DNA of 64,000 nt. Origin: a virus. The notes beneath the pieces were generated by a model. The model saw only the letters and a program-made list of their open reading frames with translations. It did no database searches and was not told the DNA's origin. Positions 4,854 to 62,037 of the stretch are shown in pieces (positions within the stretch are counted from its first letter, which is position 1; the number at the start of each line of letters is the position of its first letter). The DNA lies in IMG/VR virus record IMGVR_UViG_3300022723_000184, positions 62,001-126,000 of that record; one strand, 5' to 3'. The translations under genes were made by a program, and so were the position numbers.

Positions 4854-5792
4854 ATGTCGATCACCACCCAAGAGGAGAGCAAGCTCCTCAACGAGACGCT
4901 CTTCGAGAAGCTGTCGTCCCGCGACCCCGTGCTGGAGAAGCAGGCCGTCGACGCGGTCAACGACTTCACCCGCACGAAGATGCGTGAAGACGGCTTCTTC
5001 CGTCGGATCATGCCGCCGCTACCCATCTCGAACGACGAGCTGGACCGCCAGGTGGACACCGACAAGCCCGTGAAGGTCGTGGACAAGGAGCCGGACAGCC
5101 CGGCGGCCATCTCCATCCCCTTCGCCACCCTGCCCCAGAACCTCTACATCCGAGGCCCCCGGTACAAGGTGACGTTCGACCGCATCGTCACCCCTCGGTT
5201 CACCAAGGACGTAGACGAGCTGCGCACCTGGATCATGGACATTCGCCAAGTCCTTTCAGACAATGCAATTAAGGACATGTTGGCGGAAGAGGACGGTAAG
5301 TTCATGACCGCGGTGAACACCGCGATCGTGGGTGCCGGCCTTACGGTCCCGACCTCGGGCACCGTGCAGCACGAGGTGATCGCCGGTGGCATCACCCGCG
5401 ACACGCTGTTCGACGGCCTGAAGATCATGCCCAACACGCCCTCCAACCTGGAGGTGCACACGGTCCTGATCAACCACATCACCATCAAGGACGTGGCGAA
5501 GTTCAGCCGCAACGAGATGGGTGGTGACCTGTCGCAGGACATCATGCGGCAGGGTTGGACCCTGCAGGAGTTCCAGGGCAAGCAGTGGATCATCACGATC
5601 AAGAAGGGTCTGGTGCCCACCAACACACTGTACTACTTCGCCGATCCGAAGTTCATCGGCAAGTTCTACGTGCTGGAGGACACGACCATGTACATTCGCC
5701 GCGAGGCCTACATGCTGGAGTTCTTCGCGTACGAGACCATCGGCGCGACGATCGGCCACACCAGCGGCATCGCTCGGGCGGACTACGTCTGA
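4854..5792 (+). CDS. Major capsid protein (HK97-like fold expected)
   Basis: 312 aa, ATG 4854 behind CACGGAGGACACTTCG. After a helical N-terminal arm (residues 1-50, EKQAVDAVNDFTRTKMREDGFF) the protein alternates strands and helices as in capsid proteins: IPFATLPQNLYIRGPRYKVTFDRI, then a long helix around DVDELRTWIMDIRQVLSDNAIKDML, then FMTAVNTAIVGAG. The C-terminal half (LYYFADPKFIGKFYVLEDTTMYIRREAYMLEFFAYETIGATIGH) resembles the axial domain of large-phage capsid proteins. It has its own strong ribosome site, a perfect hairpin upstream and a terminator directly downstream, as expected for a highly expressed virion gene. Confidence 0.85.
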   Translation: MSITTQEESKLLNETLFEKLSSRDPVLEKQAVDAVNDFTRTKMREDGFFRRIMPPLPISNDELDRQVDTDKPVKVVDKEPDSPAAISIPFATLPQNLYIRGPRYKVTFDRIVTPRFTKDVDELRTWIMDIRQVLSDNAIKDMLAEEDGKFMTAVNTAIVGAGLTVPTSGTVQHEVIAGGITRDTLFDGLKIMPNTPSNLEVHTVLINHITIKDVAKFSRNEMGGDLSQDIMRQGWTLQEFQGKQWIITIKKGLVPTNTLYYFADPKFIGKFYVLEDTTMYIRREAYMLEFFAYETIGATIGHTSGIARADYV

Positions 5793-35660: not shown

Positions 35661-36460
35661 TCAACCACGTACGAACACTCCTGTTGAACGTCGACGGGTC
35701 GAACAACCCGGGCCCCACCTTCTTCGGCGAGGAGTACGTCCCGCCGGAGTTCAAGGCCGTGGACTACCCGTCGTTCATCGTCGACATCCGAGAGAAGCTG
35801 TTCGGGGCAGAACCCGACCGGGCGATGCTCAACTACCGCCTGTGGCAGTTCATGCAGGTACTGCACTCGACCGATGACCTGTCCCAACACGTCGAGGACT
35901 TCGACCCCCGCGTGACTTACGTCGACAGCAAGCGGATTGACCTCTACAACCCGGTGTCGTTCGAGCCGGTGGTCGACCAGATCTCCGGCGTGACCGCGGA
36001 GCTGTTCCCGCAGCAGGGGCCGGCAGTGCCCGATCAGAACGGCCGCGTGCGTCACCAGTACGAAGTTGACATTCTCAGCAGCTCCACGGTCCGCGTGAAG
36101 CAAGAGACGCAGCCCATTCGGCAGGAGATCGTCAGCTACACGTTCGCCGACGGTCTGAGCAGCCGCATCAACCTGCTCGACAGCGGGTGGGGCGTGTTGC
36201 TGGGTACGGACAGCGCGGGCACCTCGTGGAAGGTCGAGGTCCGCAACCGACCGCAGTACGACCTGGGCCAGCTCGTTGCGAGCGTGGCGGCCGTCGGTGA
36301 GCCGGTGTTCTTGGAACTATTCGGCCTGGCTCCCGAGGAGCCGATGCTGACCTTCAAGAACCTGTGGGAAACGAACAAGGAAACCCCGTACCGCCTGGGT
36401 GGCTTGCTGCTTGCACTGGCCCGGCGGTCCGATGAAGCACGGAGACAGGTGGTTGGCTAA
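35657..36460 (+). CDS. Baseplate protein
   Basis: 267 aa, ATG 35657. N-terminal part with VDYPSFIVDIREKLFGAEPD and LNYRLWQFMQVLHSTDDLSQ, then a beta-rich central region (VDILSSSTVRVKQETQPIRQ, EIVSYTFADGLSSRINLLDS), ending in a helical tail. It is co-translated with hub neighbours and overlaps the next gene. Likely part of the tube-baseplate junction. No named family recognised. Confidence 0.6.
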   Translation: MINHVRTLLLNVDGSNNPGPTFFGEEYVPPEFKAVDYPSFIVDIREKLFGAEPDRAMLNYRLWQFMQVLHSTDDLSQHVEDFDPRVTYVDSKRIDLYNPVSFEPVVDQISGVTAELFPQQGPAVPDQNGRVRHQYEVDILSSSTVRVKQETQPIRQEIVSYTFADGLSSRINLLDSGWGVLLGTDSAGTSWKVEVRNRPQYDLGQLVASVAAVGEPVFLELFGLAPEEPMLTFKNLWETNKETPYRLGGLLLALARRSDEARRQVVG

Positions 36461-38156
36461 GGCCAAGAATTACATCTACACCGACCTGTCCGAGGACGAC
36501 GTCCTCGAAGTGGAGATTGACGGCCAGACGTACAAGGCCGTCAATTTCACGATGTCGTTTGCGCTCAACTCGATCCCCCAGGCCGCGGCCACCCTGGCCA
36601 TCGGCCGGGAAGCTCTGTCTGGCGAGCCGGCGAAGATCGCGGAGACGGCGGCCGAACTGACTTCGATGAAGCCAGTGAAGGTCACGTTCAACGCCGGCGG
36701 CGAGTGGGACTCCGAAGGCACCAAGTGGCCCGGCAAGCAAACGATCTTCGAGGGCTACTTCACCGGGTTTTCGTACAAGAAGCTCTATGGCAAGGTCCAG
36801 GTCGTGGCCAACTTCATCCATTGGCTCGTGGACCTGGGCTTCAGCTCCTGCCTCAACTCTCAGATGCACGTGGGCAACCCGGGCGTCATGCTGGGGCCGG
36901 CCGTCATGTCAGTGCAAATTAACTCGGCGGGCGGCGCAGGTGCCAGTGACAAGAACAGCGCCCTGGTCGCCAACCACATCGGTTACGACCTGATCGCCAA
37001 CAACGTCGAGTCCGATTGGTGGAAGACGATCAAAAGCTATCTGTGTGCACTGGCCGGGGTCTCCGGGTTGGCGACCAGCGCCACTGCTACGTGCGAGGGG
37101 ACCGGCGACATCACGGCGAACGACCGGGCGCTCAGAGCCCTGTCCCGGATTGAGGGAGAGGACCTGGCCGGCGAGTGCTCTCGCGACTACGAGTTCGGCA
37201 AGGCCCTGCCCCTCGAAAGCCGAGGCCAGCGGCAGGTGCCCGATGCCGTGGCGAAGTCTGTGGCCAACTCGTACATGCAGTCCTACTTCAACCAGACGTT
37301 CTGGGACCTGCTGGTTAAGGACCTGCTGCCGAGCTTTGGTGCTGCGGTCATGCCCCTGGTCGACCGGGCGGTGGTCATCGCCGACCTCCCGACCTGGCAG
37401 GGCGTCAGCAACCAGCCCTGGAAAGAGATTGGCCCCGACGAATACGTGGCGATGGAGCAGGACTCGAAGATCCCACAGCCGTTGCGGGGAATCGGCATCT
37501 ACGCTCCGGTCGCCGGTGAGACGAACGTCCAGTCAGTGTCCGGCCCTTACAAGCCGCAACTCGGCGGCTGCTACGTGTCGGACGCCGAGGAGGACTCGGA
37601 CGGCACACTCAAGTACGTGACCGCGCCCCGTTGGTTGTTGGGGGTCCCGTCCGAAGGCCTGTACGCCGGCGCCATGACCGGGAACAAAGAAGAGAAGTCG
37701 ATCAAGTCGGCGACCCACGGCCAAGAGGACAAGATCGACACCCCCGAAGACCCTAGCCCGGTGGATACGTTCGAGACGGTCAACGAGCTGATGGTGCGGT
37801 ACGCCCACTGGCTTTTCACGATGGAATCACTTCGTGGCCGGAGCGCCATCTTCTCTGGTAGACTGAGGTTCGACATCGCCCCGGGGTCCCACCTGAAGAT
37901 CGTGGGCTCACCGGAGCAGTTCCTGGAGACCGACGCCCTGGCCTCCGACGTCTACGGCATGGTCCGTGCGGTCACGATCGGGATCGACATCGAGGCGAGG
38001 GCGGCGGTTACCTCATACGTGCTGTCACACAATCGAAACGAGGCAGAGAACGAGGCCGAGCGGACGAGTATCGAGGAACATCCACTGTTCGGGTCAGCGA
38101 TCGTCAACGGGGCGCCGCTGGTCAAGGCCTTGGACCTGGGGAGCGAAGATGCCTGA
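36432..38156 (+). CDS. Baseplate hub protein, gp27/gpD-like
   Basis: 574 aa from ATG 36432, or 567 aa from TTG 36453, which has the better ribosome site (GGAG, 8 bp). Hub pattern: VEIDGQTYKAVNFTMSFALN followed by IPQAAATLAIGREALSG, then KQTIFEGYFTGFSYKKLYGK, VQVVANFIHWLVDLGFSSCL. Later there is a long helical insertion, then ELMVRYAHWLFTMESLRGRS, RLRFDIAPGSHLKIVGSPEQ, and VTIGIDIEARAAVTSYVLSH. This order is that of the gp27/P2 gpD hub family, which forms the trimeric collar between tube and spike. Confidence 0.75.
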   Translation: MKHGDRWLAKAKNYIYTDLSEDDVLEVEIDGQTYKAVNFTMSFALNSIPQAAATLAIGREALSGEPAKIAETAAELTSMKPVKVTFNAGGEWDSEGTKWPGKQTIFEGYFTGFSYKKLYGKVQVVANFIHWLVDLGFSSCLNSQMHVGNPGVMLGPAVMSVQINSAGGAGASDKNSALVANHIGYDLIANNVESDWWKTIKSYLCALAGVSGLATSATATCEGTGDITANDRALRALSRIEGEDLAGECSRDYEFGKALPLESRGQRQVPDAVAKSVANSYMQSYFNQTFWDLLVKDLLPSFGAAVMPLVDRAVVIADLPTWQGVSNQPWKEIGPDEYVAMEQDSKIPQPLRGIGIYAPVAGETNVQSVSGPYKPQLGGCYVSDAEEDSDGTLKYVTAPRWLLGVPSEGLYAGAMTGNKEEKSIKSATHGQEDKIDTPEDPSPVDTFETVNELMVRYAHWLFTMESLRGRSAIFSGRLRFDIAPGSHLKIVGSPEQFLETDALASDVYGMVRAVTIGIDIEARAAVTSYVLSHNRNEAENEAERTSIEEHPLFGSAIVNGAPLVKALDLGSEDA

Positions 38157-38874
38157 GACACCCGATATCGATTTCGACCAGGCGTATACGTCGTGGGCCT
38201 CGGACAGGTCTCCGCAGGCCAACGCCACGATCCTGAAGGTTCTCGACCCGGTGATCAGCCAGGCGGTGCAGACACACGTCGGTACGAGCAACCCGCTGCT
38301 CAAGGCCCGGGCCCGGAAGATGACGCTCGGCGCCCTGGGCTCGTTTGACCCGAAGCGGGGCCGGCTCAAGAGCCACTTGTATTCGCAGCTCCAAGGCCTC
38401 AAGCGGCAGCATGCCAAGCAGCAGAGCATCTTCCGGGTGCCCGAGCGGCTGATGTTGGACCGCCGAGGTCTGAAGGCGGCGCAGCAGGAACTGGAAGACG
38501 AACTGGGGCGGGAGCCGACGGACCAGGAGCTGGCGACGCGCACCGGGTTCTCGGTCGACCGGATCTCTCGCATCCGGCAGTTCAGCCCCGCGATGAGCGA
38601 GGGCTTCTTCTCGACGGTGGGCGAGGGCGGCATGGTCCCACAGTCCACGAGCCCGATCAGCCAGCAATCGTCGTGGGTCCAGGTGGTGTACGACGACCTG
38701 GGCCCGCTCGACAAGAAGATCATGGAGTGGACGCTGGGCCTCAATGGCCAACCCCGACTCTCGAACCAGGAGATTGCTTTGAGGCTCAAGAGGTCCCCGG
38801 GCGCCATCAGCCAGCGAAAGGCGCTGATCCAGCAGATGCTTGACGAGGAGCAGGACCTTTCCCCTTTTCTATGA
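38149..38874 (+). CDS. Sigma-70-like RNA polymerase sigma factor
   Basis: 241 aa, ATG 38149, overlapping the hub gene end by 8 bp. Region 2 relic: ILKVLDPVISQAVQTHVG, then LGALGSFDPKRG and LKSHLYSQLQGLKRQHA, lacking the aromatic melting residues of standard region 2.3. Region 3: RVPERLMLDRRGLKAAQQEL, DELGREPTDQELATRTGFSV is an almost textbook sigma-3 sequence. Region 4: LDKKIMEWTLGLNGQPRLSN, QEIALRLKRSPGAISQRKAL with a helix-turn-helix. It may direct host polymerase to phage promoters or be packaged in the virion. Its place inside a baseplate operon is unusual and suggests late production. Confidence 0.8.
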   Translation: MPETPDIDFDQAYTSWASDRSPQANATILKVLDPVISQAVQTHVGTSNPLLKARARKMTLGALGSFDPKRGRLKSHLYSQLQGLKRQHAKQQSIFRVPERLMLDRRGLKAAQQELEDELGREPTDQELATRTGFSVDRISRIRQFSPAMSEGFFSTVGEGGMVPQSTSPISQQSSWVQVVYDDLGPLDKKIMEWTLGLNGQPRLSNQEIALRLKRSPGAISQRKALIQQMLDEEQDLSPFL

Positions 38875-38931: not shown

Positions 38932-39408
38932 ATGGGTACCGAACCGAAACCACAGTCCAAGGCCGAGATCGACTCGAACTTCGAGGGTCAGATCAAGAAG
39001 CTGCGTGAGCGGGCCAAGGACGAGGCCGACGCGAAGCTGGGCGGCGACAACGCCCAGTGGAACATCCCGGAGCTGGGCGATTGGGACGGCGACCTGTTCG
39101 CGGTCGAGGAGATCAGCGACGCGTTCAAGCGGGAAGAGGCCAACGAGAAGTTCGAGGAGGCGACCAAGGACTCCAGCTCGCCGGGTGTCGCCGGCGACCT
39201 CGGCGTTACCACACTGCAGGTTGACTACTTGGCCTGCATGGACCGGGCCTTCCGGGCCAGGCACACGATGCGACGGCCCCGGACCATGGCCCACATGACC
39301 GGCCGCCGCAAAGGCCACGGCAACGAGCGAGGTACGCTGACCCAGACGGCGTTGGAGTTCGCCCGCAACCTGCTTAAACAGGCCCAGGCGTCGGGAGGTG
39401 GTAGCTGA
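38932..39408 (+). CDS. Charged protein of the baseplate module
   Basis: 158 aa, ATG 38932. It is acidic and basic in blocks: AEIDSNFEGQIKKLRERAKD, DGDLFAVEEISDAFKREEAN, then a basic segment RARHTMRRPRTMAHMTGRRK. Mostly helical, no known domain. Position between sigma-like and gp25-like genes suggests an assembly or baseplate accessory protein. The stop overlaps the next start. Confidence 0.65.
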   Translation: MGTEPKPQSKAEIDSNFEGQIKKLRERAKDEADAKLGGDNAQWNIPELGDWDGDLFAVEEISDAFKREEANEKFEEATKDSSSPGVAGDLGVTTLQVDYLACMDRAFRARHTMRRPRTMAHMTGRRKGHGNERGTLTQTALEFARNLLKQAQASGGGS

Positions 39409-39893
39409 TGACCGTGACCGGATCCGTTGCTGCCTACGCCGATCGTCAGATCGACATGCTGGCTTTCCAGAACCCAGGTATCGGGAGCCTGGAACTGGTC
39501 GACTTGATCCTCGTCCCCGACGGCGGCAGCGGGTTCAGCATCGCCGGCATCGCCAAGCTCGCCCAGCGGTTCTTGATCGAGCTGCTGACTGAGCAGGGAT
39601 CGATCCCGTACGACACGGTCCGCGGCTCGACGTTCCTCACCGAGCTTCGGCAGGGTAGGGTGCGTACGACGCCGGCCGCCGAGACCGCGTTCTACCTGGC
39701 GCTGGACCAGGTGAAGCTCCAGCTGCAGCTGGAGGAGTCCGACGACATGCCCGACGACGAACGGTACGGGCGAACGACCCTCGACTCGATCGTGCTGTCG
39801 CCGGCCGATACGGTAAAACTACGACTGACGTTGTTCAGCTTGGCGGGGACCGGCGTGACGCTGTTGCTCCCGATTGAGACTACGCTTGGATAG
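39408..39893 (+). CDS. Baseplate wedge subunit, gp25-like
   Basis: 161 aa, ATG 39408. Contains the gp25/gpW-like core GIAKLAQRFLIELLTEQGSI followed by PYDTVRGSTFLTELRQGRV and a C-terminal strand pair (TVKLRLTLFSLAGTGVTLLL), with a helix LDQVKLQLQLEESDDMPDDE between. Length and position before the gp6/gpJ-like wedge gene match. In T4 and P2 this subunit joins the sheath to the wedge. Confidence 0.8.
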   Translation: MTVTGSVAAYADRQIDMLAFQNPGIGSLELVDLILVPDGGSGFSIAGIAKLAQRFLIELLTEQGSIPYDTVRGSTFLTELRQGRVRTTPAAETAFYLALDQVKLQLQLEESDDMPDDERYGRTTLDSIVLSPADTVKLRLTLFSLAGTGVTLLLPIETTLG

Positions 39894-39939: not shown

Positions 39940-41643
39940 ATGACGATTCAGATCACCAACCTGGACGACGTGAACCAAGAGCTTGTCGCGGACAACCTCG
40001 ACGAGATCATCACGCGCCTGCAAGAAGACAACCCATCACTCGACCTCCGGCGAGGCGTCCTCAAGGACCTGCTTGCCGGCTACCACGCGTCGCTGAGCGC
40101 TGCCGAGCAGCAGACGTTGGCCCGGTACCTCAGCGCCCGGTCGCTGCAGCAGATCGAGGCCGATCCGACGCTGGCCGACGAGGGGGTGACCGACGACGTC
40201 CTCTCCAACTACCGGGTCACCCGGCAGCAGGGGGCTACGGCCCAGGGTGAGATCACGATCGTCGTCAGTCAGAACACCACGGTGGTCATCTCCGAGGGAG
40301 CCATCTTCGAGGCCGACGGGCAGCAGTTCGCTAGCGATTCGGTGTTCACGGCCAAGACCGAGGCCGCCCAGATCAACACGTCGACCGACCGCCTGCTTCA
40401 ACAGCGATCGGACGGCAACTGGTTCTTCACCATCACGGTGACCGCGGCCGAAGTCGGGACCGAGGGGAACATCGCCAAAGACACTTTCATGGTGCCGGCC
40501 GTGCCCCCGCCCAACTACGTCACGTCGTTCGCGACCAACGACTTCGTGAGCGGGACCAACACCGAGACCAACACCCAGCTGCTCCAACGATTGCAGGAGG
40601 GGCTCGCGGCCAGGGCCCCGTCCAACCGCACGAACATGAAGGGGATGCTCCGAGAGATCTCCGACGAGGCGTACGCCGGCAACCTGCATAGCTCGATCGT
40701 CGGGTTCGGCGACGAGGAGATGCTCCGTGACCAGCACACGATCTGGCCCGGCAGCCTGGGCGGGCGCTCCGACTGGTACATTCGCACGGTCGAGCAGCTG
40801 TTCCGGCTGACGCTGCAGCGGGAAGCCACGCTCGTCCAGATCGGGACCCGTGGCGAGCTATCGAATAACTGCTCGCCCGGAGGCCCCAACGCCTCGGACA
40901 TCGTAACGGTCTGGCAGTTCGCCCTGGCCCGCGACGACGCCCCCGGTTTCTACGAGATCCGGACGGTACGCCCCCTGGGATTCGATGAGGCCAGCGGCAG
41001 CTTCGAGATCCTGGCCGACATCCGGGGCCTGGACCTGACGGGCGACGGCTTCGTCCCGGACATCGACACCGTGGAGGAAGGGGCGTACAGCCGCTACCAG
41101 ACCACGGTCATCAAGTTCATTGACGACCAGGTTGACCCGACCACGGTCGCGGTCGGGGACACTAGCGCCTACGACGTGTCAGTGGCCATGATGCCCCAGA
41201 TCGGCGACATCCAGGACGACCTGAACACCCGCGACATCCGCAGCTACGGGTCCGACGTCCTGATCAAGGCCCCGGTACCCTGCTTCGTGTCGCTCTCGTT
41301 CACGATCAACAAACAGAACAACGTGCCGGACCCGGACCTCGATGCGATCAAGACGGCGTTGGCCAAAGAGGTCAACACGATTGCGTTCCTAGGCCGGCTG
41401 TACGCTTCGCAGCTGCACGACGTGATCCAAGGCCTGCTCGGAACCACGACCAGCGCCGGCAAGATCGACATGTTCGGTCGCCTGCGTTACCCGGACGGCA
41501 CGACCAAGTACGTCCGTGACTTTGAGGTGCTGGCGATCGACGGGCCGGCCGGGCAAATGGTCAGCCCGAAGACCGTGCAGTTTTATCTGGACGTCGAGGA
41601 CATCTCGATCTCGATCGCGACCAGCGTCCCCGTGCCCTCTTAA
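39940..41643 (+). CDS. Baseplate wedge protein, gp6/gpJ-like
   Basis: 567 aa, ATG 39940 after AGGGAAGCC. Wedge hallmarks: N-terminal LRRGVLKDLLAGYHASLSAA, then GEITIVVSQNTTVVISEGAI, FEADGQQFASDSVFTAKTEA, AAEVGTEGNIAKDTF, and NTETNTQLLQRLQEGLAARA followed by NMKGMLREI. The C-terminus has the fibre/sheath-facing domain (VLIKAPVPCFVSLSFTINKQ). This is the standard baseplate J family form. The stop codon is the first triplet of the palindrome at 41641. Confidence 0.8.
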   Translation: MTIQITNLDDVNQELVADNLDEIITRLQEDNPSLDLRRGVLKDLLAGYHASLSAAEQQTLARYLSARSLQQIEADPTLADEGVTDDVLSNYRVTRQQGATAQGEITIVVSQNTTVVISEGAIFEADGQQFASDSVFTAKTEAAQINTSTDRLLQQRSDGNWFFTITVTAAEVGTEGNIAKDTFMVPAVPPPNYVTSFATNDFVSGTNTETNTQLLQRLQEGLAARAPSNRTNMKGMLREISDEAYAGNLHSSIVGFGDEEMLRDQHTIWPGSLGGRSDWYIRTVEQLFRLTLQREATLVQIGTRGELSNNCSPGGPNASDIVTVWQFALARDDAPGFYEIRTVRPLGFDEASGSFEILADIRGLDLTGDGFVPDIDTVEEGAYSRYQTTVIKFIDDQVDPTTVAVGDTSAYDVSVAMMPQIGDIQDDLNTRDIRSYGSDVLIKAPVPCFVSLSFTINKQNNVPDPDLDAIKTALAKEVNTIAFLGRLYASQLHDVIQGLLGTTTSAGKIDMFGRLRYPDGTTKYVRDFEVLAIDGPAGQMVSPKTVQFYLDVEDISISIATSVPVPS

Positions 41644-61722: not shown

Positions 61723-62037
61723 ATGGCCACAGCAGCACACAAGCTGGTCGTGATCCAGGACAACACCCTGAAGAACATGGCCAAGCAAACGCGGTTCACC
61801 AAGGAGTTCCCGTTCCTTCAGTCGCTCAACCGACTGAACCAGGGCGCCCCGAAGCGAGGTTGCGGCGGGTGCCGATCGAGCAACAACCGGGTGTCCGAGG
61901 TATTCGCTGCGGCAAAGCGTGCGCTGGCCTCGCTGCCGGCCTCGAAGAAGCGGGTGCTCAAGGAGCTGCTTGGGGCTAAGAAGGTGCGGGTTACCTACCG
62001 TCAAGCAGGCGGGAAGACGGTCGAACTGACCTTTTAA
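61723..62037 (+). CDS. Small basic protein with Cys motif
   Basis: 104 aa from ATG 61723 after TAGGAGCGGCC; the frame upstream overlaps the previous gene. Basic and helical with FPFLQSLNRLNQGAPKRGCG, a CGGC pair, and a long basic helix AAAKRALASLPASKKRVLKE. It could bind nucleic acid or act in head/tail assembly. Short C-terminal strand VRVTYRQAGGKTVEL. Confidence 0.6.
   Translation: MATAAHKLVVIQDNTLKNMAKQTRFTKEFPFLQSLNRLNQGAPKRGCGGCRSSNNRVSEVFAAAKRALASLPASKKRVLKELLGAKKVRVTYRQAGGKTVELTF

Follow-up and report, generated by a model that had tools for sequence, protein, structure and literature searches.

Why should a phage encode a sigma factor among its baseplate genes, and which RNA polymerase would that factor serve? 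The question is raised by a stretch of 64,000 nucleotides (here, the window), positions 62,001 to 126,000 of the 201,946-bp virus record IMGVR_UViG_3300022723_000184. A sequence-only reading of this stretch proposed that a gene overlapping the baseplate hub gene encodes a sigma-70-like protein with clear regions 3 and 4 and a reduced region 2, made late with the virion proteins, and offered three roles for it: driving a very late class of genes, being packaged and injected to start transcription in the next cell, or serving as a recruited structural protein.

A sigma-70 family gene in a baseplate operon

The encoded protein belongs beyond doubt to the sigma-70 family, by homology far above chance. 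Pfam Sigma70_r3 matches it with an E value of 7e-9, a single-sequence search of the PDB returned SigB as best match (E = 1e-5), a profile of 29 relatives matched SigA in the PDB from sigma2 to sigma4 (E = 9e-17), and hhalign against Escherichia coli RpoD gave 97% over residues 51 to 232. Sigma factors head both the Foldseek and the VIA lists of PDB structures for the AlphaFold2 model (mean pLDDT, 84). With VIA-align, residues 3 to 94 superpose on sigma2 of SigI6 (Z = 11.1, rmsd of 2.5 Å over 91 residues) and residues 173 to 234 on sigma4 of SigA (Z = 10.1, rmsd of 1.5 Å over 62 residues); global TM-scores are low, which we attribute to the flexible linkers that join the domains. Sigma2, sigma3, and sigma4 are thus all present, in that order. 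Regions 3 and 4 are as first read, whereas the reduced region 2 needs qualification: the predicted sigma2 fold is complete, and the reduction applies to region 2.3. An extracytoplasmic function (ECF, group 4) sigma factor was considered and rejected, since that group has sigma2 and sigma4 without sigma3. A search of bacterial genomes with the protein found no relative.

The hub open reading frame stops at 38156 and that of the sigma factor starts at 38149, confirming an overlap of exactly 8 bp (ATGCCTGA); 5 nucleotides separate the GGGGAG ribosome-binding site from the ATG (Table 1). The baseplate setting holds as well, with the hub gene before the sigma gene and genes for a gp25-like protein and a phrog_6 wedge subunit after it. 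The identity of the hub is supported by its predicted structure, whose top fold matches are the contractile-system hubs VgrG, Mu gp44, and T4 gp27. The order hub, sigma, small protein is kept in all 30 loci that we read, and it runs on through gp25 and the wedge gene in 29 of them; in the remaining one (L170) the contig stops after the small protein. The nine loci L019 to L027 also show the same five-gene order. In the loci read, the place of the sigma gene between the hub and the gp25 and wedge genes is therefore invariant.

Table 1. Features of the sigma locus, in window coordinates
Feature	Position	Strand	Basis or remark
Baseplate hub gene, gp27/gp44/VgrG fold	36399..38156	+	AlphaFold2 and Foldseek, E = 1.6e-12; true start maybe slightly downstream of 36399
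Ribosome-binding site GGGGAG for sigma, within the hub gene	38138..38143	+	Read from the sequence
Sigma-70 family gene	38149..38874	+	241 aa; Pfam, PDB profile, hhalign, and AlphaFold2 support
Sigma2 domain, residues 3-94	38155..38430	+	VIA-align on SigI6 sigma2
Region 2.3 equivalent, residues 71-86	38359..38406	+	Shorter than the RpoD region by two residues; melting aromatics substituted; invariant R86
Sigma3 domain, about residues 99-144	38443..38580	+	Sigma70_r3 match at residues 108-144; helices in model
Linker of low model confidence, about residues 145-172	38581..38664	+	Residues 150-172 modeled at pLDDT < 50
Sigma4 domain with helix-turn-helix, about residues 173-237	38665..38859	+	VIA-align on SigA domain 4
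Conserved 158-aa protein, always adjoining sigma	38932..39408	+	
gp25-like baseplate wedge protein	39408..39893	+	PDB profile search, E = 0.0025
Baseplate wedge subunit, gp6/gpJ-like	39940..41643	+	phrog_6, E = 5e-20

Sigma factor and RNA polymerase in virions of a relative

Upstream of the window, at about 33 to 54 kb, the record carries genes for beta, for a beta/beta' N-terminal part with the catalytic motif NADFDGD, and for the C-terminal part of beta'. As in virion RNA polymerase (RNAP) systems, the phage thus encodes its own RNAP, the genes for both subunits lying on one record. These genes are split by several LAGLIDADG/Hint intein-like insertions and lie tens of kilobases from the sigma gene. 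They are homologous to gp206 and gp216 of Salmonella phage Arash, which also has a homolog of the window sigma factor, gp10 (29% identity over 133 residues), with gp25-like and wedge genes of a similar type after it. Unlike the window phage, Arash has a second sigma factor, gp196, and a promoter-like motif discussed below.

Mass spectrometry of purified Arash virions recovered gp10 at 100% coverage (24 unique peptides, 467 spectra) together with beta (128 peptides, 3516 spectra) and beta' (40 peptides, 1210 spectra) (PMC10585845); neither a holoenzyme nor conservation of the sigma locus is described in that paper. From the published table we calculated spectra per residue, a rough measure, which came to 2.00 for both gp10 and beta' and 2.31 for beta, with 2.43 for the helicase gp217 and 1.87 for gp218. 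The baseplate proteins were lower, gp8, which occupies the hub position, reaching 0.67 and the wedge protein gp13 reaching 0.98, so by this measure the abundance of gp10 tracks that of beta and beta', unlike its baseplate neighbors. By homology with Arash (PMC10585845), the virion of the window phage may likewise hold both RNAP and sigma factor.

We think it likely that the protein is a promoter-specificity subunit, or sigma factor, dedicated to the RNAP that the phage itself encodes, and that it is packaged and brought into the cell to begin transcription. It would be translated together with the tail proteins, bind the phage core enzyme through the clamp helices of beta', be packaged in the virion within the holoenzyme, and enter the cell with the DNA to initiate at phage promoters. 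Among the three roles first offered, packaging and injection is thus the best supported, through the Arash virion proteome, although injection itself we infer; action on a very late class of genes is a less likely role. The packaging part is weakened because virion presence is known for Arash only, whose gp10 is 25 to 29% identical to the window protein, and the reading as a whole because the RNAP genes are distant from the sigma gene and the searches recovered no promoter for the group to which the window belongs.

The same observations bear on a second explanation, in which the sigma factor serves the phage RNAP inside the infected cell, for example at late genes, and its presence in virions reflects carry-over or incidental packaging. 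The gene does lie among structural genes. Ribonucleotide reductase and metabolic enzymes were among the 116 proteins of the Arash preparation, whose authors mention carry-over (PMC10585845), and motif searches, those in the Arash group included, tied no early promoter to the sigma factor. We nevertheless regard this explanation as unlikely: the unique-peptide density of gp10 equals that of the major capsid protein, its spectra per residue match those of beta and beta', and gp196, the other sigma factor of Arash, is absent from the virion protein list (PMC10585845).

A promoter motif, for which the sequence-only reading had suggested a search, was not recovered in the window's group, where k-mer enrichment in four genomes (the window's phage, G000, and G025, G023, and G009) gave no dominant promoter-like motif. 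Matches to the host sigma-70 promoter pattern TTGACA-N15-19-TATAAT numbered zero in six genomes, a result that says little, since on our estimate chance alone would give about 0.1 per genome. Dyad enrichment was run on the window's phage and on Arash. The motif GGTATAAG occurs at 31 sites in Arash (OQ632216), 30 of them on the minus strand and mostly just before genes; many extend as N5-TGTA, and the motif is common to the relative G012. It is likely a promoter class of the Arash group, and it is unassignable to gp10 because a gp196-like sigma factor is present there as well.

Other repeated elements were seen in the record. With at most two mismatches, the palindrome AAAAAGTACTTTTT occurs at 15 sites in the record, those in the window being at 2002, 27967, 41642, and 63933, mostly in intergenic positions shortly 5' of start codons, compared to 0 expected in simulated genomes; it is possibly an operator or promoter element. 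Downstream of the window, at 149596 to 152302 of the record, a CRISPR array of 11 repeats of 36 bp (GTCTCATCTTCTAAACCGATGAGCAGGTATTACGAT) adjoins the gene for a 589-aa Cas12u1/Cas12f-like effector (PADLOC, E = 1.8e-98), together a compact phage-borne CRISPR system. Solitary variants of the repeat lie near gene ends at record positions 5237, 7635, 46788, 53598, 72771 (minus strand), 124154, and 136042, with those in the window at about 10771 (minus strand) and 62154 (plus strand), and some are followed by GGTCAGTATAACTT.

The probable partner polymerase

Host RNA polymerase had been assumed as the partner of the sigma factor, but the phage carries its own beta and beta'. Searching IMG/VR with a beta' N-terminal alignment alone, without reference to sigma, yielded 179 relatives, and exactly one sigma factor of the window family was present in every RNAP-positive contig above 100 kb that was tested (36/36). 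In the reverse test, Rpb1_2 was found in 10 of 12 syntenic sigma contigs above 100 kb, the two negative contigs being 117 and 119 kb long and perhaps partial; a thirteenth (G001) has beta. Throughout the clade, sigma factor and phage RNAP go together in a one-to-one pairing. Their distances are also correlated (sigma versus beta', r = 0.93), although congruent trees would follow from common descent alone.

Outside this arrangement, Vibrio phage 1.031.O has a sigma gene elsewhere, away from recognized baseplate genes, and the divergent RNAP phages Va2, EP_H11, IME392, Rhizobium Y65, Carin-5, and PhiPA3 gave no match to the sigma family. In Cobetia phage Carin-5, the gene immediately upstream of the phage RNAP gene encodes 196 aa and carries the annotation "sigma factor" (L067, 1541 to 2131); its product had no significant match in Pfam. 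A candidate second sigma gene at about 21.9 kb of the window's record proved to encode a short LuxR-like helix-turn-helix protein and no full sigma factor.

The presumed interface points the same way. The phage beta' retains recognizable clamp helices, and residue 54 of the sigma protein, at the position of RpoD E407, is an arginine, opposite in charge to its cellular counterpart; in cellular RNAP, E407 touches beta' at R278/R281 of the clamp helices. In the window's group R or K predominates at the E407 position and E or D at the R281 position of beta', whereas Arash and the Arash-like genomes G012 and G013 have E at the E407 position and keep beta' R278/R281. Where sigma2.2 presumably meets the beta' clamp, the charges are thus complementary in both phage groups but differ between them; the swap represents roughly one evolutionary event, which limits its weight.

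These results also bear on whether the protein redirects host RNA polymerase to phage promoters, as T4 gp55 or SPO1 gp28 does, which reviews give as the usual role of most known phage sigma factors. The phage's own beta and beta', the one-to-one co-occurrence, and the arginine at the E407 position (given the presumed contact) stand against this, and we consider it improbable, more so than a purely intracellular role with the phage enzyme. T4 gp55 and the SPO1 sigma-like factors are, like the window protein, phage-encoded sigma-70 relatives, but their target is host RNAP, the phages concerned having no multi-subunit RNAP of their own. By its beta and beta', the window phage departs from the T4 gp55 type of late factor, which belongs to phages that borrow host RNAP.

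Promoter opening and implications for RNAP-encoding phages

Residues F427, Y430, W433, and W434 of RpoD correspond to L, H, S, and Q in region 2.3 of the window protein, so that all four are replaced, and the protein lacks the set of aromatics by which sigma factors melt the −10 element. Across the 29 relatives, the F427 position holds L or V and the Y430 position H in 26; one relative has tryptophan at the W433 position and two have it at W434. Q is kept at the Q437 position in 24 of the 29, and the equivalent of R441 is invariant. The melting-aromatic set is also incomplete in several bona fide sigma groups, and because those groups vary too, its loss limits claims about mechanism more than claims of homology. 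Judged from these substitutions, promoters are probably opened through other contacts, in a way that would differ from that of a cellular sigma factor, since the aromatics that open the −10 element are largely gone.

The least probable of the explanations is that a former sigma factor has become a structural baseplate protein, as was first offered: its invariant place between the hub and the gp25 and wedge genes, the lost aromatics, and its presence in Arash virions would suit such a role, but it fits less well with the retained sigma3, sigma4 helix-turn-helix, and invariant R441 equivalent and with an abundance in Arash that follows RNAP rather than the baseplate neighbors.

A packaged sigma factor dedicated to the phage RNAP, as proposed here, can be set beside known systems. 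The mReC phages (Weinheimer and Aylward 2020, PMC7481178) are likewise tailed, metagenomic, and equipped with beta and beta' of a multi-subunit RNAP; that group is defined by an RNAP tree, as a deep clade apart from cellular RNAP, and the likeness here is one of beta/beta' presence. The main text of that paper mentions neither sigma nor virion packaging. Like the window phage, phiKZ and AR9 encode multi-subunit RNAP, and phiKZ packages one in its virion. AR9 gp226 and phiKZ gp68 act at promoters and are folded like sigma factors but have no detectable sequence similarity to them, whereas the window protein is plainly a sigma factor by sequence, with sigma3 and sigma4. As a tentative and rather doubtful extension, this clade of tailed phages may package a true sigma-70 holoenzyme in which the sigma factor tethers RNAP to the hub, so that contraction would deliver a ready initiation machine with a nonstandard mode of promoter opening.

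Reviews describe jumbo phages with their own multi-subunit RNAP as lacking a recognizable sigma homolog and assign phage sigma factors to phages that borrow host RNAP. Contrary to that picture, as drawn from the openly licensed PMC papers that we searched, an RNAP-encoding clade carries one sigma factor beside its baseplate hub. A holoenzyme whose sigma factor is without the classic melting residues would be a tool for asking what promoter opening truly needs, and the sigma factor itself is a concrete candidate for how RNAP-encoding phages begin transcription.
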